A stretch of DNA of 64,000 nt from Williamsia sp. DF01-3. Lineage in GTDB: Bacteria > Actinomycetota > Actinomycetes > Mycobacteriales > Mycobacteriaceae. Below the pieces are notes generated by a model, which saw only the letters and a program-made list of their open reading frames with translations, searched no databases and was not told the DNA's origin. The position numbers were made by a program, and so were the translations under genes. This document shows, piece by piece, positions 19,860 through 50,025 of the stretch (position 1 is its first letter; every line of letters starts with the position of its first letter). The DNA is taken from NCBI RefSeq assembly GCF_023051145.1, contig NZ_JALKFS010000005.1, positions 186,001 through 250,000 of the forward strand, read 5' to 3'.

Positions 19860-20603
19860 CTACATCTGCCAGTGCACCGGCCGCGAGATGATCTCGTTCA
19901 ATCGGCGCCGGTAGTACTTGGCCGTTTCTTCCACGAACGCACTCATCGCGGTGGCGGACGCGTCCTGGTCGCGCTCGCGCATGGCGTCGAGAACGTCCTG
20001 CTGCATCTCGACCGCAGCAAGCCGGGTCGCCATCGGGTGCTCGCTGGGTTCGGCGTCGCGCACCAGCAGCCACAGTGTTTCCATCACGATGCGCAGAGCT
20101 GGATTCCCGGCGGCTTCGTACACCCCTCGCTGGAACACCGCGTTGTTCTCCTGGAAGTTGGCGTAATCGCCGGGGTCCTCGCGCATGCGGTCGAGCGCCA
20201 GTTGCATGGTCTCGAGCTGATCGTCGGTGACGTTCGCCGCGGCCTGACGGGCGACGATGGGCTCCATCATCAGCCGCACGTCGATGACGTCGCTGATGTT
20301 GGCGCCGTTGATCTGCAGGAACAGCTTCATCGTGTTGCCGAGCGACTCCAGCTCCGGCCGCTTTGCCACTGGGCCGCCACCGATGCCGGACTTGATCGTC
20401 ACGAGATCGCGGCTTTCGAGCAGACGCAGCGCCTCGCGGACGGTCGTACGCGCCACCCCGTGCTCGGCGACCATTTCCTTCTCTGTGGGTAGCCGTTGTC
20501 CGACGACGATTCCGCCTCCGAGGATCTGATCCGCGATCACGTTGGCCACTCGCGCCGAGATCTTGGGCGCGCGCGCCCGCGGAACGCTTTCCTCGATGGT
20601 CAT
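19860..20603 (-). CDS. GntR-family regulator, FadR subfamily (FCD domain)
   Basis: A 247-residue regulator. The GntR winged helix covers about residues 12-75 (VANVIADQILGGGIVVGQRLPTEKEMVAEHGVARTTVREALRLLESRDLV). The all-helical FCD ligand domain follows (about 90-230), usually sensing organic acids or acyl-CoAs through a metal site. ATG 20603 follows a GGGGGAG ribosome site. It is divergent from the acyl-CoA ligase operon, with an imperfect palindrome (20672-20688) in between. The same 17-bp sequence recurs 26 kb away, so it may control the whole catabolic island. Confidence 0.93.
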   Translation of the reverse strand: MTIEESVPRARAPKISARVANVIADQILGGGIVVGQRLPTEKEMVAEHGVARTTVREALRLLESRDLVTIKSGIGGGPVAKRPELESLGNTMKLFLQINGANISDVIDVRLMMEPIVARQAAANVTDDQLETMQLALDRMREDPGDYANFQENNAVFQRGVYEAAGNPALRIVMETLWLLVRDAEPSEHPMATRLAAVEMQQDVLDAMRERDQDASATAMSAFVEETAKYYRRRLNEIISRPVHWQM

Positions 20604-20671
20604 GTGTTTCTCCCCCGCCTCCAAGTTCGTCTCGCAGTGCTAACCATACCTACGGACAGTGTGATGTGCGC

Positions 20672-20688
20672 CAAGTCTGTACATAGTT
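20672..20688. promoter_or_regulatory. putative FadR-type operator, copy A
   Basis: CAAGTCTGTACATAGTT contains the imperfect palindrome AAGTCTGTACATAGTT (six of eight pairs symmetric, core TGTACA). It lies between the divergent FadR-type and acyl-CoA ligase genes, 69 bp from the first and 60 bp from the second. The same 17 bases occur at 46714-46730. Confidence 0.6.
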
Positions 20689-27320: not shown

Positions 27321-30300
27321 TCACCCGATCACCAGAAGCAGGTCGCCACCATCGACCTGTGCTGCACCACTGATGGGCACTCGGCTGACGGTGCCGGAGC
27401 GGGGCGCGGTGATCGCGGCCTCCATCTTCATCGCCTCGATGCTTCCCACCAATTCACCCTGCTCGATGGCGTCGCCCTCTTTGACCGACAACGTGACCAC
27501 ACCGGTAAACGGCGCCGGCACCTGTCCCGGATCGGTGCGATCGGCCTTTTCGGCTTCGCGAGTGGTCGTCTCGACGCTGCGGTCACGTACCTGTACCGGA
27601 CGGAGCTGACCGTTGAGGATGCACAGCACGTTTCGCATGCCCTGGGCATCGGGTTCGGAGATGGCTTCCAGACCGATCAGCAACTCCACGCCGGGTTCGA
27701 GTTGCACCCGGTGCTCCTCACCTTGCCGCAGGCCGTAGAAGTATTGATTGGTCGACAACTGCGCGGTGTCTCCGAAGTTGTCGCGGTGGGTTTCGAATTC
27801 CGTTGTCGGACCGGGGAACAGCAGCCGGTTCAACGTCTCCCGCTTGACTTCGCTCGGCCCCGACAGTCCCGCAAGCTGTTGTTCCGTGAGGGGTGTGACC
27901 GCTCTTGGCTCGGCCCGACCGGCCAGCGCCCGGGACCGCAGCGGTTCTGGCCAGCCACCGGCGGGGTCGCCGAGGTCGCCGCGGAGGAAGTCGATGACCG
28001 ACGACGGGATGTCATAAGAGGACGGTTCGGCTGCGAAGTCGTCCGCTGTCGCATCGGCGCCGACAAGCGCCAACGCGAGGTCGCCGACGACCTTCGACGA
28101 CGGGGTCACCTTGACCAATCGGCCCAGAATCCGGTCGGCGCCGGCATAGGCCGACTCGATGTCCTCGAACCGATCGGCCAGGCCGAGCGCCGAGGCCTGC
28201 TGGCGCAGGTTGGACAGCTGCCCGCCCGGGATCTCGTGGGTGTACACGCGGCCGGTGGGAGCGGGGAGTCCTGACTCGAATGGCGCATAGTTCGAACGGA
28301 TTGCGGCCCAGTAGGGTTCGAGGTCGCACACGGCGCTGAGATCGAGCCCGGTGTCACGTGTTGTGTGCTCGGTCGCGGCCACGATCGCCGACAGCGCCGG
28401 CTGACTGGTGGTGCCGGCCAACGCGGCGCTGGCGCCGTCGACGGCGTCGACACCGGCGTCCCAGGCCGCGAGGTACGTGGCCAACTGGCCGCCCGGGGTG
28501 TCATGGGTGTGGAGATGAACCGGTAGATCAAAACGTGAACGCAGTGCTGCGACAAGGGTTGCGGCGGCCGGGGGACGCAGCAGACCGGCCATGTCCTTGA
28601 TCGCGAGAATGTGTGCGCCGGCCTCCACCAGTTGTTCGGCGAGCCGCAAATAGTAGTCGAGCGTGTACAGGTCCTCGTCTGGATCGGTCAGATCGCCGGT
28701 GTACGACATCGCCACTTCGGCAACAGCTGTGCCCGTGTCGCGAACCGCATCGATGGCCGGACGCATCTGATCGACGTTGTTGAGCGCATCGAAGATCCTG
28801 AAGATGTCGACACCCGTGTCTGCCGCCTCGCGAACGAACGCATGGGTCACCTCGTCGGGGTACGGCGTGTATCCCACCGTGTTCCGGCCTCGCAGCAGCA
28901 TCTGTATGCAGATGTTCGGCATCGCCTCACGTAGCGCGGACAATCGCTCCCACGGGTCCTCGTGCAGAAAGCGCAGCGCCACATCATATGTCGCGCCTCC
29001 CCATGCCTCCACCGACAGCAGCTGCGGGGTCATCCGGGCGACGTAGGGCGCAACGGCGACGAGATCACGGGTTCGTACGCGCGTTGCCAGTAAGGACTGA
29101 TGGGCATCTCGGAATGTGGTGTCTGTGACGGCCAGAGCCGTTGAGCGACGGAGGTCTGCGGCGAACCCCGTCGGTCCGAGGCGGAGCAGCCGATCCCGCG
29201 ATCCGGCCGGAGGTGGGTTGCCGACGTCCACCGCCGGCAGCTTGTCCACGGCATATACGGTGGACGGACGCTCGCCGTGTGGCCGGTTGACGGTGATCTC
29301 TGCCAGGTAGCGGAGGATGCGAGTGCCTCGGTCCGCGGAGACGTTCTGGGTCAACAGTTCCGGGTGGTTCTCGATGAAGGACGTGTCGACCCTCCAGGCC
29401 AGGAAGTCGGGATTGTCCAGGACTGCCTGCAGGAAAGGAATGTTGGTCGCCACACCACGGACACGGAACTCGGCGATCGCCCGCCGGGCGCGGGCCGCTG
29501 CGGTGACGAAGTCGCGTCCGCGGCAGGTGAGTTTGACCAGCATCGAGTCGAAATGCGAACCGATCTCCGATCCGAGTCCGACACTGCCGTCCAATCGGAC
29601 GCCTGAGCCGCCCGGTGTGCGATAGGCCGTGACCCGGCCGGTGTCGGGGCGGAATCCGTCGGTGGGATCCTCGGTTGTGATTCGGCACTGCATGGCGGCG
29701 CCGCGGATCTCGATGGAGTCCTGCGTCAGACCCAGGTCGGTCAGCAACTCACCCGACGCGATACGCAGTTGCGCCGCAACCAGATCGACATCGGTGATCT
29801 CCTCGGTGACGGTGTGCTCCACCTGGATACGCGGGTTCATCTCGATGAAGACGTGATTGCCGTATGGGTCCAGAAGGAACTCCACGGTGCCTGCGCAGGT
29901 GTATCCGATGTGCCGAGCGAACTTCACCGCGTCGGCGCAGATACGTTCGCGCAGTTCGGGATCGAGGCCTGGCGCGGGAGCCACCTCGACAACCTTCTGG
30001 TGTCGCCGCTGCAACGAGCAGTCTCGCTCGAAGAGGTGGATGACCTCGCCGCTGCTGTCACCCAGGATCTGGACCTCGATGTGCCGGGGGTTGACCACCG
30101 CCTGTTCGAGGAAGACGGTCCCGTCACCGAACGCCGTGTGCGCCTCTCTCGATGCAGCCTCGATGGAAGACCGGAGTGATTCCGGGTCGGCGACACGTCG
30201 CATTCCTCGGCCGCCGCCGCCGGCAACCGCCTTGACGAATACAGGGAAGCGCATTCCCTCCGCTGCGGCGACCAGCTCGTCGACATCATCGGATGGCGCA

Positions 30301-30704
30301 CAGGAGGCCAGCACCGGCAGCCCGGCGGCTCGGGCGGCGGCAACAGCGTGCGACTTGTCCCCGGTCAGCCGGAGTATGTCGGCGGACGGGCCGACGAAGG
30401 TGATCCCCGCAGCTGCACAGGCAGCGGCCAGATCCGGATTCTCGGAGAGGAACCCGTATCCGGGGTAGATCGCGTCGGCACCAGCACGTTGTGCGGCCGA
30501 GATGATCTCGTCGACAGAGAGGTAGGCGCGAACGGGATGGCCCGGTTCACCGATTTGATACGCCTCGAACCCTTTGGCGCGATGGGCCGAGTTGCGGTCT
30601 TCGTAGGGGTAGACGGCAACCGTCGACGCACCCAGTTCAACGGCGGCACGAAATGCGCGGACCGCGATCTCGCCACGGTTGGCGACCAGGACCTTTGTGA
30701 ACAT
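27321..30704 (-). CDS. pyc: pyruvate carboxylase
   Basis: A 1127-residue single-chain pyruvate carboxylase that replenishes oxaloacetate. The biotin carboxylase domain (about 1-450) starts MFTKVLVANRGEIAVRAFRA. The carboxyltransferase domain (about 520-830) has TDTTFRDAHQSLLATRVRT. The C-terminal biotinyl domain carries EAMKMEAAITA with the biotinylated Lys1093. ATG 30704 fits the family start and follows AGAGAGGAA. It is divergent from the phosphohistidine-domain gene. Its position in a catabolic island may serve anaplerosis when growing on acyl-CoA-yielding compounds. Confidence 0.97.
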   Translation of the reverse strand: MFTKVLVANRGEIAVRAFRAAVELGASTVAVYPYEDRNSAHRAKGFEAYQIGEPGHPVRAYLSVDEIISAAQRAGADAIYPGYGFLSENPDLAAACAAAGITFVGPSADILRLTGDKSHAVAAARAAGLPVLASCAPSDDVDELVAAAEGMRFPVFVKAVAGGGGRGMRRVADPESLRSSIEAASREAHTAFGDGTVFLEQAVVNPRHIEVQILGDSSGEVIHLFERDCSLQRRHQKVVEVAPAPGLDPELRERICADAVKFARHIGYTCAGTVEFLLDPYGNHVFIEMNPRIQVEHTVTEEITDVDLVAAQLRIASGELLTDLGLTQDSIEIRGAAMQCRITTEDPTDGFRPDTGRVTAYRTPGGSGVRLDGSVGLGSEIGSHFDSMLVKLTCRGRDFVTAAARARRAIAEFRVRGVATNIPFLQAVLDNPDFLAWRVDTSFIENHPELLTQNVSADRGTRILRYLAEITVNRPHGERPSTVYAVDKLPAVDVGNPPPAGSRDRLLRLGPTGFAADLRRSTALAVTDTTFRDAHQSLLATRVRTRDLVAVAPYVARMTPQLLSVEAWGGATYDVALRFLHEDPWERLSALREAMPNICIQMLLRGRNTVGYTPYPDEVTHAFVREAADTGVDIFRIFDALNNVDQMRPAIDAVRDTGTAVAEVAMSYTGDLTDPDEDLYTLDYYLRLAEQLVEAGAHILAIKDMAGLLRPPAAATLVAALRSRFDLPVHLHTHDTPGGQLATYLAAWDAGVDAVDGASAALAGTTSQPALSAIVAATEHTTRDTGLDLSAVCDLEPYWAAIRSNYAPFESGLPAPTGRVYTHEIPGGQLSNLRQQASALGLADRFEDIESAYAGADRILGRLVKVTPSSKVVGDLALALVGADATADDFAAEPSSYDIPSSVIDFLRGDLGDPAGGWPEPLRSRALAGRAEPRAVTPLTEQQLAGLSGPSEVKRETLNRLLFPGPTTEFETHRDNFGDTAQLSTNQYFYGLRQGEEHRVQLEPGVELLIGLEAISEPDAQGMRNVLCILNGQLRPVQVRDRSVETTTREAEKADRTDPGQVPAPFTGVVTLSVKEGDAIEQGELVGSIEAMKMEAAITAPRSGTVSRVPISGAAQVDGGDLLLVIG

Positions 30705-30883
30705 GGGCGTTCCTCTCTTGTCGGGACGATGCCGGGAACGGCGAATCACACCGCACGGGCAGGCACGGTGTGGCGAGGTATGTGAGCTGAGTCTCTCATG
30801 TTTTAGCATCACTTACTAGATGGGCAGTCAAGTTAGTCAGATTCGGCTGTCGCCTGAGAATGTTGCTCAACTTGCTGCGCAAT

Positions 30884-30895
30884 ATCTCTGTACAT
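30884..30895. promoter_or_regulatory. putative FadR-type operator, copy C (weaker)
   Basis: ATCTCTGTACAT matches AAGTCTGTACAT of copies A and B at ten of twelve bases, including the core TCTGTACAT. It lies in the 262-bp gap between divergent pyruvate carboxylase and the phosphohistidine-domain operon, 72 bp before the latter's start. Confidence 0.4.
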
Positions 30896-30966
30896 GTTTC
30901 TATTTGGGCGACGTTTCTATAGTGTGACTTGAAATACAGTCCGTCAGCCGCCTTCAGGAGGACTCG

Positions 30967-32706
30967 ATGAGCAACGCGCCACGCGCCGACCACTGGATCA
31001 CCGATTGGGAGTTCAGTGAGCGCTACCCCGTCTACACGCGGGCCAACGCGGGAGAGGTCCTGCCCGACCCGTCGAGTCCGCTGAACGTGACACTCGTGTG
31101 GAACAAGGGTCTCAACATCGGGTGGCGCGAAGGCTACGTCGAGCACCTCGGAACCCACCTGGCCTCCGAGATCGACGAGACGATGCCCGAGATCATCGGC
31201 AACTTCGGCGGCTACCACTACACCAACTTCTCGATGACCGAGCTCAACGGCGCTCGCCTACCTGGCCTGACCGTGCCGGTGTGGAACCGCCTCTGGGTGG
31301 GCGACCACCCCGACCTACCTGAGTACGAGCCGAAGCCGGGCCACGAGAACGCTGAACTGACCGCGGGTCTTGCCGAGAAGACCGCGTGGGCATTGACCAC
31401 CGATACGTATCCCGAAGCCGAAGAGACCAAGCGCCGCGCCGACCTCGCGCGCGAGCAGCGTCCTGACCTCAGCGCCCTGAGCGATCAGGAATTGGTCGAC
31501 CACGCACGATCATTCGTTCCCGACCTGGTCTTCTGCTACGCCTACCACCCGGTCACCACCACACTGTCCACGATGGGACCGGCAGTGGCCGGCGCCCTGC
31601 TCGAGTCCATCGGTGAGAGCGACAAACTCGGCGATCTGCTGAGCGGATTGGGCGGTGTCGACTCGGCCGCTCCGTCTTTCGCAATGTGGAAGATGGGCCG
31701 CCTTGTCGCTGCCTCAGACGAACTGACCACCATCTTCGACGGTGGTCTCGCCACTGTGCTCGACGCGGTCGACGCCAGTGATTCCCCCGATGCCAAGCAG
31801 TTCCGCATCGACTTCGACGACTTCCTGTACAAGTACGGTTCCCGGGCACCGAACGAATGGGACATCCGTTCGGACAGCTGGGAGACCAAACCTGTTCTCG
31901 CACTGATGGCGATCAACGGCATGCGTCTGAGCCCCGACGATGCCGATCCAGAGCTGATCCTCGAGCGCAACCAGGCCAAGCGCATCGCGCTCACGGCCGA
32001 GCTCGCCGACAAGATGCCCGATGCAGACACCCGCCAGAGCTTCCTCGACGCAGCCAAGTCGATCACCAAGTTCATGCCATGGCGCGAACGGACCAAGACA
32101 TCGTGCGTCAAGGTGATGGGTGAGATGAGAGCGGCCCTTTACGAATTGGGGCACCGCATGGTCGCTCGCGGGGTGATGGACGACCACCACGACATCACCA
32201 TGCTGCTCGACACCGAGCTCGACGACTTCGCTGCCGACCCCGAGTCGTTCTCGGCCACCATCGCCGAGCGCCGCGAGCAATACCTGCAGTTGTTCGACCT
32301 GGAACCGCCGTTCTTCCTGTTCGAGCCGCTCCCCTTGTCACAGTGGCCGCGCCGGACCGAACACAAATCGGAACCCGCCCTGCCGGGTGACACTCTGAGC
32401 GGCGTGGGTGGCGCTCCGGGCGTGAGCCGGGGCCGAGCTCGAGTACTTCACGACCCCTATGACGCAGGCGATCTAGCAGAGGGCGACATCATCGTCGCAC
32501 CGCAGACGGACCCGGCCTGGACCCCGTTGTTCGTCTTTGCCGGTGGCGTGGTGGTGAACGTCGGGGCCACCATCACCCACTCGTCGATCGTCTGTCGCGA
32601 ACTGGGCATTCCCTGTGCGGTCTCGGTCCAGGATGCGACCGCACGCATCCCCGACGGCGCGATGATCGAGGTGGACGGCAACACCGGGACAGTGACCGTA
32701 CTGTGA
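30967..32706 (+). CDS. phosphohistidine 'swivel' protein resembling the C-terminal two-thirds of rifampicin phosphotransferase
   Basis: The 579-residue protein has a large N-terminal substrate-type domain (about 1-460) with the segment YTRANAGEVLPDPSSPL, like the drug-binding domain of rifampicin phosphotransferase. A PEP-utiliser mobile domain follows (about 480-579). The swivel motif is NVGATITHSSIVCRELGIP with His538 as the probable phosphorylated residue. The ATP-grasp domain that normally supplies phosphate is missing, as in subunit 1 of phenylphosphate synthase, so a partner is required. AGGAGG precedes the start. It heads an operon with an LLM oxidoreductase, alcohol dehydrogenase and SDR. 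Phosphorylation of a hydroxylated catabolic substrate is inferred. Confidence 0.75.
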   Translation: MSNAPRADHWITDWEFSERYPVYTRANAGEVLPDPSSPLNVTLVWNKGLNIGWREGYVEHLGTHLASEIDETMPEIIGNFGGYHYTNFSMTELNGARLPGLTVPVWNRLWVGDHPDLPEYEPKPGHENAELTAGLAEKTAWALTTDTYPEAEETKRRADLAREQRPDLSALSDQELVDHARSFVPDLVFCYAYHPVTTTLSTMGPAVAGALLESIGESDKLGDLLSGLGGVDSAAPSFAMWKMGRLVAASDELTTIFDGGLATVLDAVDASDSPDAKQFRIDFDDFLYKYGSRAPNEWDIRSDSWETKPVLALMAINGMRLSPDDADPELILERNQAKRIALTAELADKMPDADTRQSFLDAAKSITKFMPWRERTKTSCVKVMGEMRAALYELGHRMVARGVMDDHHDITMLLDTELDDFAADPESFSATIAERREQYLQLFDLEPPFFLFEPLPLSQWPRRTEHKSEPALPGDTLSGVGGAPGVSRGRARVLHDPYDAGDLAEGDIIVAPQTDPAWTPLFVFAGGVVVNVGATITHSSIVCRELGIPCAVSVQDATARIPDGAMIEVDGNTGTVTVL

Positions 32707-43947: not shown

Positions 43948-43959
43948 AAGTATGTACAT
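43948..43959. promoter_or_regulatory. putative FadR-type operator, copy D
   Basis: AAGTATGTACAT differs at one of twelve bases from copies A and B. It lies in the 242-bp gap between the divergent ABC operon and VOC gene. A related but weaker ACATGTATCTACAG stretch is at 44070-44083. Confidence 0.45.
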
Positions 43960-44128
43960 GGATATGTCCAGCGTTTGCGCAATTTGTTATTTTCGGCTCT
44001 GACCGGCAGATTCATGCACACTGCGGCGGTTGTCCCGCGCCACCGCCGTCAACCCGATGTCATCGAGACAACATGTATCTACAGTCAGATAGAAGTTACC
44101 GAGCGGTAGAGGAGAGGTGACCTTCTAT

Positions 44129-46730: not shown

Positions 46731-46858
46731 TCTGCGTTCTTTCTTGACTTCCACTACTATTTGGGTACGTTATGAGCACGGTCACAGTCTCCGAGCGCGA
46801 GGCACCGACCACTCTCGCCATCCGCCGTCCCGCAGCCGGGACCCGTTCGAGGAGCACC

Positions 46859-47485
46859 ATGAACGACCTCGCGATCAACAACTCTGCACCGGCCACCGCG
46901 TCAGCCGAGCTGGTCAATCTTGTTGTGAAGGGCATGTCCCGTGGGCCGATCGCCCCTGAGCTCCAGATAGTTGTCGACGCCGGGCATGCCATCGCGAAGG
47001 GTCCGATGGTGATGCCGACCCCCGCGGGTATTGCCGAGGCAGGCCGTCTGGTCCGTCTGCCGGAGGGCAGTGCGCAGGAGCAGGCCGTGCGGGACTTCCT
47101 CCACGCCTTTCTCCCCGTCAACCGGCAGCTGCGTGAACTGTGCACTGCGTGGCAGTGCCGACCGGACGGCTCGGCCAACGACCACTCGGACGCCCAGTAC
47201 GACGCCTCCATCCGGGATCGTCTCGACGACATCCACTCGGCGGTCTCGAAGATGCTGCGGCGGGCAGGCAAACAGGCCCCCGAACTCACCGAATACCGCG
47301 ACCGTCTCGGGGTCGCGCTCGAACGCTTCGACGACGGCGACACCGCATCCCTCACCTCGCCCCTCACCGACGGCTACCACACCGTCTGGATGTGGCTGCA
47401 CCAGCACGTTCTGATGATGCTCGGTGTCACCCGCGCCGAGGACGAGGCACTCGAGGAGGAGCTCGTTTCGGGTTCGTCCCGATGA
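46859..47485 (+). CDS. unknown helical protein coupled to the PPDK-like enzyme
   Basis: I do not recognise this family. The 208-residue product is predicted mostly helical, with VVDAGHAIAKGPMVMPTPAGIAEAGRLVRL near the start and DGYHTVWMWLHQHVLMMLGVTRAEDEALEEEL at the end. It has no signal or membrane segment. ATG 46859 has GAGGAG just upstream; a start at 46772 would need a leaderless message. Its stop overlaps the PPDK-like start by ATGA, so the two are translated together. A regulatory or adaptor subunit of that enzyme is a reasonable guess only. Confidence 0.75.
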   Translation: MNDLAINNSAPATASAELVNLVVKGMSRGPIAPELQIVVDAGHAIAKGPMVMPTPAGIAEAGRLVRLPEGSAQEQAVRDFLHAFLPVNRQLRELCTAWQCRPDGSANDHSDAQYDASIRDRLDDIHSAVSKMLRRAGKQAPELTEYRDRLGVALERFDDGDTASLTSPLTDGYHTVWMWLHQHVLMMLGVTRAEDEALEEELVSGSSR

Positions 47486-50025
47486 CGTTGTCGGAGAACA
47501 CATTCCCGGCAACGACCCGCGCCGCCGTTCCTTACGGCCAGGGACGTGCCCGCGGACTCGGCGCAGACGTGCTCGGGGTACACGGCGTCGAGATGGACAA
47601 CCTCGTCGCCCTCGGCCTGCCCGTCGTCCCAGGATTGACGGTGCCGATCGGCGCCGGATCCGGCCTACAGGATCACCAAACCGCCACCACGGCGATCGAT
47701 CTGCTCGAAAAGCTCGCAGTCCGAGGCATCTGGCCGGCTGTGCGTACAGAGCGGCGGCCGATGCTCATGCATCTGCGCTGCAGCGCACCCGTACCCGTGT
47801 CGGCTCTACCGCCCGCCATCTCGGTCATCGGCTTGTCCAGCCGGAACATCGACGCGCTGGTGGAAGTGATCGGACGCGAACGCGACATCTACGACTCGTG
47901 GGCCGCGAATCTGCGGTTCGTCGCCGAGAACGCTCTCGAAGTCGATGTTGATGACCTCGACGACCTCGCGGACGACCATCCCGACAGCAGGGCCCAGGTG
48001 CCCGCGCTGCTCGAACTGATCGAAGAGTCGACAGGCTCACCCTTTCCCGCCGACCCGGCCGAACAACTAGGCCTGGCGGCCAAAGCGATGCTGGCGCGGT
48101 GGGCGTCACCTCGAGGCCAGCGGGCCCGCAGAGCGCTGTCGCTTCCCGATGATCTCGGTATCGCCCTGCATGTCCGAGCGCTGCGTCTGGGCTCGTGGAA
48201 CGAGTCCGGGTACGGATCGGCCATCAGCCGCGACCTCGAGACCGGCCGTTTCGCACCCCACGGCGTCTTCCATCTCGGCGTTCGCCGGGCCGACCCGAAT
48301 CCGGGCCCCGGCGACCCCCTTGACCAGACACCGGGCGGTGTCCAGATCCTGGACCAGATCTTCGCAACCCTCGAGCCGCATCTGCGTGGAGTCGCAGAGG
48401 TCGAGTTCGAGGTGCGAGACCGCCAGCTGGCGTTGCTGAGTGCCCAGGCGGTCGAACACCCCGGACCACGTGCGATCACACACCTCGCGGTGGATCTCGC
48501 GACCGCAGGCTCGATCAATCGCAGCGAAGCCGTTCGTATGCTCGAACCAGACCTGATGCAAGACCTCCTGCACGCCCAGCTCAAACTGACCGGGTCTGAA
48601 CAATTGCTCGCACGCGGGCTACCGGCCTCTCCCGGCGCTGCGATCGGCGAGATCGCCCTGTCGAGCGACCGCGCGATCCAGCTCGCAGGCCAGGGCAAGA
48701 ACGTCATCCTCGTGGCGTCCGAGACGAGCCCGGCGGACGTGCCGGCTCTACTCGCGGCCACCGCGGTGGTCACATCGAACGGCGGGCTGGCATCGCATGC
48801 CGCGGTCGTCGCACGGGGGGCCGGACGCCCGGCTGTCTGCGGAGCGACGACGCTGCGCATCGACGCGAACGCCGGCACCGTCACCGCCGGTGACGTGACA
48901 CTCCGTGAAGGCGACACCGTGTCGGTCAACGGGCGCACCGGAGACGTGTATTGCGGCACCGTGACGATCCGCCCCGCCGAGCCATCGGCCGAACTCGAGG
49001 TCCTGCTCGGGTGGGCCGACGAAATCCGGCGCCTGAGGGTGCGCACCAATGCAGACAACGCCGAGGACGCCGCAACGGCGTTTCGGCTCGGTGCCGAGGG
49101 AATCGGCCTCTGCCGCACCGAACATCAGTTCCTCGGCGATCAACTTCCTCTTGTGCAGCGCCTTGTGCTCGCAGAATCAGAGGCTGAAGAAATCGAGGCG
49201 ATCGCCGCTCTCACCACCGCCCAGCAGAGCGACTTCACCGACCTGCTGCGAGTGGTCGGGAACCGCCCGATCACGGTTCGCCTTCTCGACGCCCCACTCC
49301 ACGAGTTCCTGCCTGCCGACGGCGAATACCGCGACGAGGCGCAGGCCCAGCGCGCCGCCGACACCCATGAATCGAATCCGATGCTCGGATTGCGGGGTGT
49401 GCGGTTCGCGATGGTGCAACAGAAGCTGTATCCGGCACAGGCCGAGGCGCTGTTCAGGGCATGGGTGACCGTGAACGGCGAAGGGCTGCAACCACAACTC
49501 GAGGTTATGATCCCGCTGGTGTCACTGCCCGGCGAGCTGTCCAAAGCGATCAAGCAGGTGCGTTCGGCCGCAGCGGATGTCGAGCGAGACACCGGCGTGA
49601 CGATTCCGTATCTCGTGGGCAGCATGGTCGAGACACCCCGCGCCGCCTTGCTGGCCGACTCCTTGGCCGAAGACGCGCAATTCCTCTCGTTCGGCACCAA
49701 CGATCTGACGCAGCTGACCTATGGGTTCTCGCGGGACGACGTCGAGAAGACCATGCTCACCCACTATCTCGAACACGGGCTGCTCGACGACAGTCCTTTC
49801 GCCGTACTGGACACCGATGGCGTCGGGGCGTTGATCTCGATGGCCGTCCGCAGTGCGCAGCAGGCACGGCCCGCGGTGAAGCTCGGTGTGTGCGGCGAAC
49901 ATGGCGGCGATCCTGCGTCAATCGCCTTCCTTGATTCTGTTGGACTGCACTATGTTTCGTGTTCACCACGTCGTGTCCCGGTGGCCCGGCTGGCTGCTGC
50001 GCACGCGGCACTCGAAAGCAGGTGA
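47482..50025 (+). CDS. pyruvate, phosphate dikinase-like protein with degenerate nucleotide domain
   Basis: The 847-residue protein has PPDK order and length. The C-terminal two-thirds look functional: swivel-domain His439 in NGGLASHAAVVARG, PEP-domain motifs GLCRTEHQF and FGTNDLTQLTYGFSRDD, and catalytic Cys804 in GVCGEHGGDP. The N-terminal ATP domain is eroded: the hallmark RSGAxxSMPGMMDT reads RCSAPVPVSALPPAIS (about 99-114), and the LQTRxGKR-type segment reads LLSAQAVEHPG (about 318-328). It may still phosphorylate its histidine from PEP but not use ATP normally. It overlaps the upstream unknown gene (ATGA); an acyl-CoA dehydrogenase follows 6 bp later. Confidence 0.8.
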   Translation: MTLSENTFPATTRAAVPYGQGRARGLGADVLGVHGVEMDNLVALGLPVVPGLTVPIGAGSGLQDHQTATTAIDLLEKLAVRGIWPAVRTERRPMLMHLRCSAPVPVSALPPAISVIGLSSRNIDALVEVIGRERDIYDSWAANLRFVAENALEVDVDDLDDLADDHPDSRAQVPALLELIEESTGSPFPADPAEQLGLAAKAMLARWASPRGQRARRALSLPDDLGIALHVRALRLGSWNESGYGSAISRDLETGRFAPHGVFHLGVRRADPNPGPGDPLDQTPGGVQILDQIFATLEPHLRGVAEVEFEVRDRQLALLSAQAVEHPGPRAITHLAVDLATAGSINRSEAVRMLEPDLMQDLLHAQLKLTGSEQLLARGLPASPGAAIGEIALSSDRAIQLAGQGKNVILVASETSPADVPALLAATAVVTSNGGLASHAAVVARGAGRPAVCGATTLRIDANAGTVTAGDVTLREGDTVSVNGRTGDVYCGTVTIRPAEPSAELEVLLGWADEIRRLRVRTNADNAEDAATAFRLGAEGIGLCRTEHQFLGDQLPLVQRLVLAESEAEEIEAIAALTTAQQSDFTDLLRVVGNRPITVRLLDAPLHEFLPADGEYRDEAQAQRAADTHESNPMLGLRGVRFAMVQQKLYPAQAEALFRAWVTVNGEGLQPQLEVMIPLVSLPGELSKAIKQVRSAAADVERDTGVTIPYLVGSMVETPRAALLADSLAEDAQFLSFGTNDLTQLTYGFSRDDVEKTMLTHYLEHGLLDDSPFAVLDTDGVGALISMAVRSAQQARPAVKLGVCGEHGGDPASIAFLDSVGLHYVSCSPRRVPVARLAAAHAALESR

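Follow-up and report, generated by a model that had tools for sequence, protein, structure and literature searches.

The 64,000-nucleotide stretch of Williamsia sp. DF01-3 analysed here (contig NZ_JALKFS010000005.1, positions 186,001 to 250,000; hereafter the window) contains two overlapping genes, encoding a small protein, P0001, and a protein resembling pyruvate phosphate dikinase (PPDK), P0003, and, within the same catabolic island, a gene for a swivel protein, P0002. Judging from sequence, and with a probability that we put at about one half, P0003 and P0001 may form a replacement of the kinase VadK that is charged by phosphoenolpyruvate (PEP) and feeds P0002. Because the ATP-driven VadK holds the same place in related bacteria, the clade of the window would have exchanged ATP for PEP.

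In the mechanism that we propose, P0003 would be a former PPDK turned into a PEP-charged phosphoryl donor. PEP would phosphorylate His439 on its swivel domain, since the PEP domain and the swivel are intact, and the rebuilt N-terminal domain (N-domain) would no longer make or use ATP in the manner of PPDK, since ATP-site residues have been lost. Together with P0001, this N-domain may present the phosphoryl group to an acceptor, most likely P0002, which has a substrate-binding region and a swivel His of its own (His538) without an ATP-grasp partner, and which would then phosphorylate a substrate of the island. The predicted relay would run from PEP to His439 of P0003, with P0001 to His538 of P0002, and from there to the substrate, each of these steps being putative. 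If true, this would amount to a phosphorelay driven by PEP and separate from the sugar phosphotransferase system (PTS), and to a natural exchange of donor, from ATP to PEP, in one module. More tentatively, the module could be a kinase with an interchangeable donor, in which either ATP-driven VadK or PEP-driven P0003 serves the same partner and acceptor and a PEP-driven His-to-His relay activates a catabolic substrate outside the PTS.

Domains and constraint of P0003

A survey of 401 genomes of the family with the PEP domain of P0003 as query (E ≤ 1e-60) gave matches in 21. Orthologs of P0003 are present in 19 of the 401: each of the nine genomes that represent the genus has one, and the other ten belong to three further genera. 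For ten genomes the start of P0003 was set by extending the PEP-domain match. The two remaining matches, in G450 and G455 (at 50-52% identity), have the appearance of canonical PPDKs; P0001 was not found within 15-20 kb of them.

The mechanically called open reading frame (ORF) of P0003 spans 47140..50025, and its likely start is the ATG given in Table 1. Solved PPDKs align end to end with the protein, and Pfam searches matched the mobile and PEP-binding domains (PEP-utilizers_C, 2.6e-69), with His439 lying within SNGGLASHAAVVARG and Cys804 within VKLGVCGEHGG. The swivel His, Cys804 (the equivalent of Cys831) and nine further PEP-domain columns have the PPDK residue in all 19 orthologs, and all of them have Ala in place of the regulatory Thr that in PPDK precedes the swivel His by two residues. 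P0003 matched the PPDK model TIGR01828 over its whole length with 693.1 bits, below the curated cut-off of 843.45, and scored 120.7 bits against TIGR01417 (PTS enzyme I), far under the cut-off of 341.7.

We aligned the ATP site in 13 canonical PPDKs, 90 VadK-type rows (one of them, L177, a 27-aa fragment) and the 19 P0003 orthologs, using residue numbers (Lys22, Arg92, Glu279, Asp321, Glu323, Gln335 and Arg337) that we take to be those of C. symbiosum PPDK. In the orthologs, the Lys22 column is always His and the Gln335 column always Ser, the Arg337 column is Gly (15) or Gln (4), the Glu279 column Ala (11) or Thr (8), and the Asp321 column is variable (Glu 14, Gln 3, Gly 1, Lys 1); the VadK rows retain Lys22 in 86 of 90, Gln335 in 88 and Arg337 in 88. 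An earlier note, made from the letters of the window, had described His439 and the PEP domain (Cys804) as intact and the N-terminal nucleotide motifs as strongly altered. Both descriptions agree with the columns just given, and PPDK_N had no Pfam match in P0003 at E ≤ 1; as far as sequence goes "strongly altered" is correct for the ATP site, and to call the site gone would be an overstatement. P0003 was rejected as a canonical PPDK, given the ATP columns lost in all 19 orthologs and the missed TIGR01828 cut-off.

Of the columns conserved in PPDK, the orthologs keep a mean of 49.5 of 160 (31%) in the N-domain, 63% in the swivel and 71% in the PEP domain. The N-domain has a conservation of its own, with 212 of 331 positions invariant among the 19 orthologs and 69 of the 160 PPDK-conserved columns fixed to a non-PPDK residue in all 19. 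The ratio of nonsynonymous to synonymous substitution rates (dN/dS), compared between the window and seven other genomes at dS values of about 0.8-1.5, which are near saturation and make the ratios rough, was 0.051-0.115 for the N-domain, 0.067-0.154 for the swivel and 0.074-0.103 for the PEP domain. The corresponding values were 0.133-0.187 for P0001, and 0.085-0.148 and 0.025-0.065 for the substrate region and swivel of P0002. On these ratios the N-domain of P0003 is under purifying selection, as low in dN/dS as the PEP domain, and is rebuilt, not decaying; a decaying pseudogene was rejected.

P0001 and its family

P0001 was first described as an unknown helical protein coupled to the PPDK-like gene. 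The coupling holds, as P0001 lies directly upstream of P0003 in all 19 genomes and the two genes share four bases (ATGA) in every orthologous pair; the word unknown does not, as the family of P0001 accompanies VadK kinases. Among the best 80 of at least 581 confirmed named loci of this family, ranked by a family member from outside the window, a VadK-type ATP-grasp stands beside the P0001-family gene in 77, within 3 kb in 76 of them; we take the VadK-type layout to be an ATP-grasp and a swivel without a PEP domain. No PEP domain was found near the P0001-family genes at any of these 80 loci, and an HpeH-like region is also present at 20. The three loci without VadK are L116, where it is seemingly reduced to a 102-aa remnant, and L178 and L179, which are on short contigs.

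At 14 of the 77 loci, the P0001-family protein continues the reading frame of VadK to form one fused protein, and in the fusion at L145 Pfam PPDK_N and mobile domains are followed by the small-protein part, in place of the PEP domain of PPDK. The fused ORFs, mostly from Nocardia, are at L136, L137, L144-L146, L150-L152, L155, L158, L163, L164, L169 and L172. Apparent remnants of VadK or of a swivel domain were seen beside the small protein at L116:10708-11016 and at the small-protein end in L044. Two VadK-like proteins of about 813-836 aa (L049:8945-11386 and L051:8982-11477) have a C-terminal part that by eye resembles a degraded PEP-binding barrel, and are possibly a mirror image of P0003.

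The longer form of P0001 had no Pfam match at E ≤ 1. We read its N-terminal part as winged-helix-like, and one relative has a Pfam winged-helix match below the cut-off of that model. Conserved residues include N88, W98, Q99, N107, H109, D111, D115, D171, H174, W177 and H181. The family profile has strong matches in many actinobacterial genera and matches 144 of 394 genomes of the class at E ≤ 0.001, the weaker matches covering the N-terminal part only and being probably unrelated winged helices.

According to the available text of PMC13400623, VadK is Rv1127c, and its operon partner Rv1126c raised the solubility of VadK and was separated by a 2 M NaCl wash. From the matching position of the genes beside VadK, we infer that the family of P0001 is that of Rv1126c.

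P0002 and its company

Residues 282-579 of P0002 align with residues 571-866 of rifampin phosphotransferase (RPH; E = 5e-32); RPH has its own ATP-grasp in one chain, whereas P0002 is without one. In the accessible part of PMC12167813, HpeHI, CreHI and PpsAB are described as two-component aromatic dikinases, and HpeI supplies the ATP-grasp for HpeH. By this description P0002, with a substrate-binding region and a swivel His but no ATP-grasp, resembles the HpeH type; unlike HpeHI, it was seen with no stand-alone ATP-grasp partner, and the nearby donor is P0003. Such a partner, the housekeeping explanation, was rejected, as none is present in five of the 19 P0003 genomes (G320, G505, G572, G581 and G707), which have no PPDK_N (PF01326) match genome-wide at E ≤ 0.001. 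In the nine genomes of the genus, the frames that match PPDK_N have the size of RPH, PpsA or VadK, except for two short ones next to a swivel half. In the genome of the window itself, an RPH-like gene (G000:C5:3221890-3224102) is apparently split into frames of 494 and 347 aa.

Co-occurrence of the three genes in relatives, the absence of which the earlier note would have taken as refuting its proposal, was found throughout: P0001, P0003 and P0002 are together in all 19 P0003 genomes, across four genera. The P0002 ortholog (84-100%) shares a contig with P0003 in 18 of the 19, at a distance of 9.2-14.8 kb (they are split in G605), and each genome also has a P0002 paralog (41-45%), which in 15 is on the contig of P0003, 7.0-33.4 kb apart. 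Searching the 401 family genomes for P0002-like genes (E ≤ 1e-60, with at most three candidates scored per genome), we listed 70 loci in 40 genomes, 39 of which also have VadK or P0003. For 60 of the 70 loci the donor is on the same contig, always within 50 kb and in 52 cases within 20 kb; nine of the other ten have a donor on another contig of the genome, the exception being G746. The hypergeometric probability of this co-occurrence is 8e-25, calculated with 104 donor genomes, including the two with a canonical PPDK (G450 and G455), and with genomes counted as independent, which they are not.

A pyruvate carboxylase gene (27321-30812 of the window) adjoins P0002, as it also does in L245 and L248. 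A PEP-driven transfer would yield pyruvate.

VadK clusters and ancestry

Twelve P0002-like regions were taken, and in seven of them (L251, L253, L254, L255, L257, L261 and L262) VadK, an aldehyde dehydrogenase (ALDH), the small protein and the P0002-like gene are together; in L252, L256 and L258-L260, VadK and the small protein lie outside the stretch taken. In the seven clusters the ALDH is 40-45% identical to that of the window and the small protein 36-43% identical to P0001, and the L254 cluster also carries P450, SurE and SDR genes and a TetR regulator. A named example of the exchanged cluster comes from Rhodococcus pyridinivorans P23; on its plasmid pA the annotation of these genes reads "pyruvate, phosphate dikinase", "MarR family transcriptional regulator" and "PEP-utilizing enzyme".

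In phylogenetic trees, P0001 and its orthologs cluster, on a long stem, with the small proteins of the VadK clusters, with moderate support (94 bootstrap / 89 SH-aLRT), and do so again in a larger quick tree (91). P0003 falls with full-length PPDKs, outside VadK, with support of 99; the placement needs caution because the stem is 5.0 changes per column long, and a long-branch effect is possible. With the same caution, an origin of P0003 from a VadK that regained a PEP domain is not favoured. The simplest story would be that a PPDK-derived protein replaced VadK beside a pre-existing set of small protein and acceptor.

Comparison with known systems

The pairs VadK (Rv1127c)/Rv1126c and P0003/P0001 are alike in that both have a PPDK-derived protein with a swivel His and a small partner, the match of the partner families being suggested by gene position. 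In VadK the ATP site is intact and the PEP domain missing; P0003 shows the reverse, and shares with the VadK type the adjacent P0001-family partner, in all 19 genomes. P0003 resembles PPDK in domain order, swivel His and PEP-binding site, but differs in its lost ATP-site residues, the Ala for Thr before the His, the coupled small protein and the score below cut-off. With PTS enzyme I it has in common a related PEP domain and a swivel His that in P0003 would likewise be charged by PEP; unlike enzyme I, it has no recognised HPr-binding domain and scores far below the enzyme I model. Among related kinases the donor can be ATP in one and PEP in another, as the PEP-dependent dihydroxyacetone kinase DhaKLM exemplifies; its proteins are unrelated to P0003 and its donor route passes through PTS proteins. 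A precedent for transfer from a PEP-charged protein is enzyme I, which alone phosphorylated rifampicin in vitro, and not detectably in vivo, as given in the available text of PMC13099321.

In the open-access literature, the terms that we used found no paper on a PEP-driven version of the VadK module. Full-length PPDKs without kinase motifs are mentioned for two mycobacteria in the accessible part of the VadK paper (PMC13400623). The relay proposed here would offer testable roles for such PPDKs, for the family of VadK partners and for HpeH-like proteins without an ATP-grasp partner. New here are the association and fusion of the P0001 family with VadK, the distribution and constraint of P0003, P0002 as the proposed acceptor half and the shared operator-like motif.

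Alternative explanations

Several observations weigh against a relay from PEP through P0003 to P0002. G746 has a P0002 ortholog (84%), but neither P0003 nor VadK was found; its P0002 keeps LLM, ADH and SDR neighbours, P0001, P0003 and ALDH are absent from the 54 kb taken around it, and a 792-aa frame encodes the one PPDK_N protein of the genome. A P0002-like match at E ≤ 1e-60 is missing from most of the 90 genomes in which VadK was matched, so that VadK clearly has other roles. The VadK list, like that of P0002-like genes, scored at most three candidates per genome, and G591 and G649 each have at least one P0002-like locus outside the list. Because P0002 has its own swivel, the relay would require a hypothetical His-to-His step. 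PTS enzyme I-like genes are present in the P0003 genomes too, and their products could be a rival donor for P0002. Finally, Arg92 and Glu323, direct ATP contacts that are numbered Arg95 and Glu324 in the available text of PMC5507339, are unchanged in all 19 P0003 orthologs, so P0003 may keep some nucleotide binding. The earlier note had thought a PEP-driven relay conceivable, to a small molecule or to the swivel protein, and this is supported in part; the co-occurrence, the P0002-like genes found elsewhere with VadK and the intact PEP half speak for it, and the two retained residues against it.

P0003 and P0001 might also act alone, as a PEP-driven small-molecule kinase in which P0001 binds the acceptor and replaces the second-substrate domain missing from VadK, while P0002 has another donor. 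The fusion of P0001 relatives to VadK at its C-terminal end, the expected position of a PEP domain, and the many invariant polar residues of the family are consistent with this, but it would leave unexplained that P0002-like genes so constantly accompany VadK or P0003 and that P0002 has no PPDK_N partner in five genomes, and we consider it unlikely. Somewhat more doubtful is a PEP-charged regulatory phosphoprotein pair acting on enzymes of the island. In the accessible text of PMC13400623, autophosphorylation of VadK is described and a role in regulating enzymes of the methylcitrate cycle is proposed, with a partner that aids its solubility; the linkage seen here, however, connects the pair with a catabolic island that has an acceptor-type kinase, and not with methylcitrate genes.

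That P0003 still uses a nucleotide, as an altered PPDK with a changed nucleotide or direction, would fit the retained Arg92 and Glu323 and the match to the PPDK model over the whole length, though under its cut-off. It is improbable, given the columns for Lys22, Gln335, Arg337 and Glu279, changed in every ortholog while nearly all VadKs keep the first three, and the much lower retention of PPDK-conserved columns in the N-domain than in the PEP domain. That P0003 is a scaffold for P0001 and P0002 without catalytic activity, with which the rebuilt domain would at most be compatible, is very improbable, as every ortholog keeps His439, Cys804 and the nine PEP-domain columns that were checked, under strong constraint. 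The PEP-charged replacement of VadK, feeding P0002, is the explanation that we favour.

Operator-like sites and neighbouring genes

The earlier note had also tied the P0001 and P0003 genes to the catabolic island by a shared operator-like site. The pattern AAGTNTGTACATRG is matched exactly at three places of the window, each of them intergenic, against an average of 0.31 in shuffled sequences, three or more occurring in 1 of 100 shuffles. The sharing extends over three intergenic regions, and the P0002 promoter takes part in it by the core TCTGTACAT only. This core proves little by itself, because the window has 14 copies of the bare TGTACA, most of them inside genes, for an expectation of about 4. 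A similarly placed TGTACA precedes 16 of the 19 P0001 orthologs and 17 of the 19 P0002 orthologs. The sites and the neighbouring genes are listed in Table 1.

Table 1. Coordinates, in the window, of the genes, domains and operator-like sites discussed
Feature	Position	Strand	Remarks
P0001, 208 aa, VadK-partner family	46859..47485	+	Longer 237-aa start possible at 46772
P0003, PPDK-like protein, 847 aa	47482..50025	+	ATG at 47482 overlaps P0001 stop
P0003 rebuilt ATP-grasp region, about aa 30-360	47569..48561	+	Equivalents of Lys22, Glu279, Gln335 and Arg337 lost; Arg92 and Glu323 kept
P0003 swivel (mobile) domain with His439, about aa 374-500	48601..48981	+	
P0003 PEP-binding domain with Cys804, aa 501-847	48982..50022	+	
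P0002, RPH/HpeH-like substrate-binding region and swivel with His538, without ATP-grasp	30967..32706	+	Proposed receiver
Operator-like site CAAGTCTGTACATAGTT between ALDH gene and P0001	46714..46730	+	
Same 17 bases CAAGTCTGTACATAGTT between GntR/FCD regulator gene and acyl-CoA ligase gene	20672..20688	+	
Core-only match TCTGTACATG in P0002 promoter	30884..30900	+	Misses the longer pattern within 2 mismatches
Operator-like site upstream of ABC-transporter/VOC genes	43948..43961	+	
ALDH, divergent from P0001	45179..46663	-	
GntR/FCD regulator	19860..20624	-	Candidate reader of the operator-like sites

To the right of the window (L243 and L244), the stretch continues with a second P0002-like gene and other enzymes, and some of the proteins there, read from their starts, resemble 2-oxoacid dehydrogenase subunits, histidine phosphatases and a Rieske protein. 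Plasmid pRZP2 has a comparable set in its annotation, near a VadK pair.

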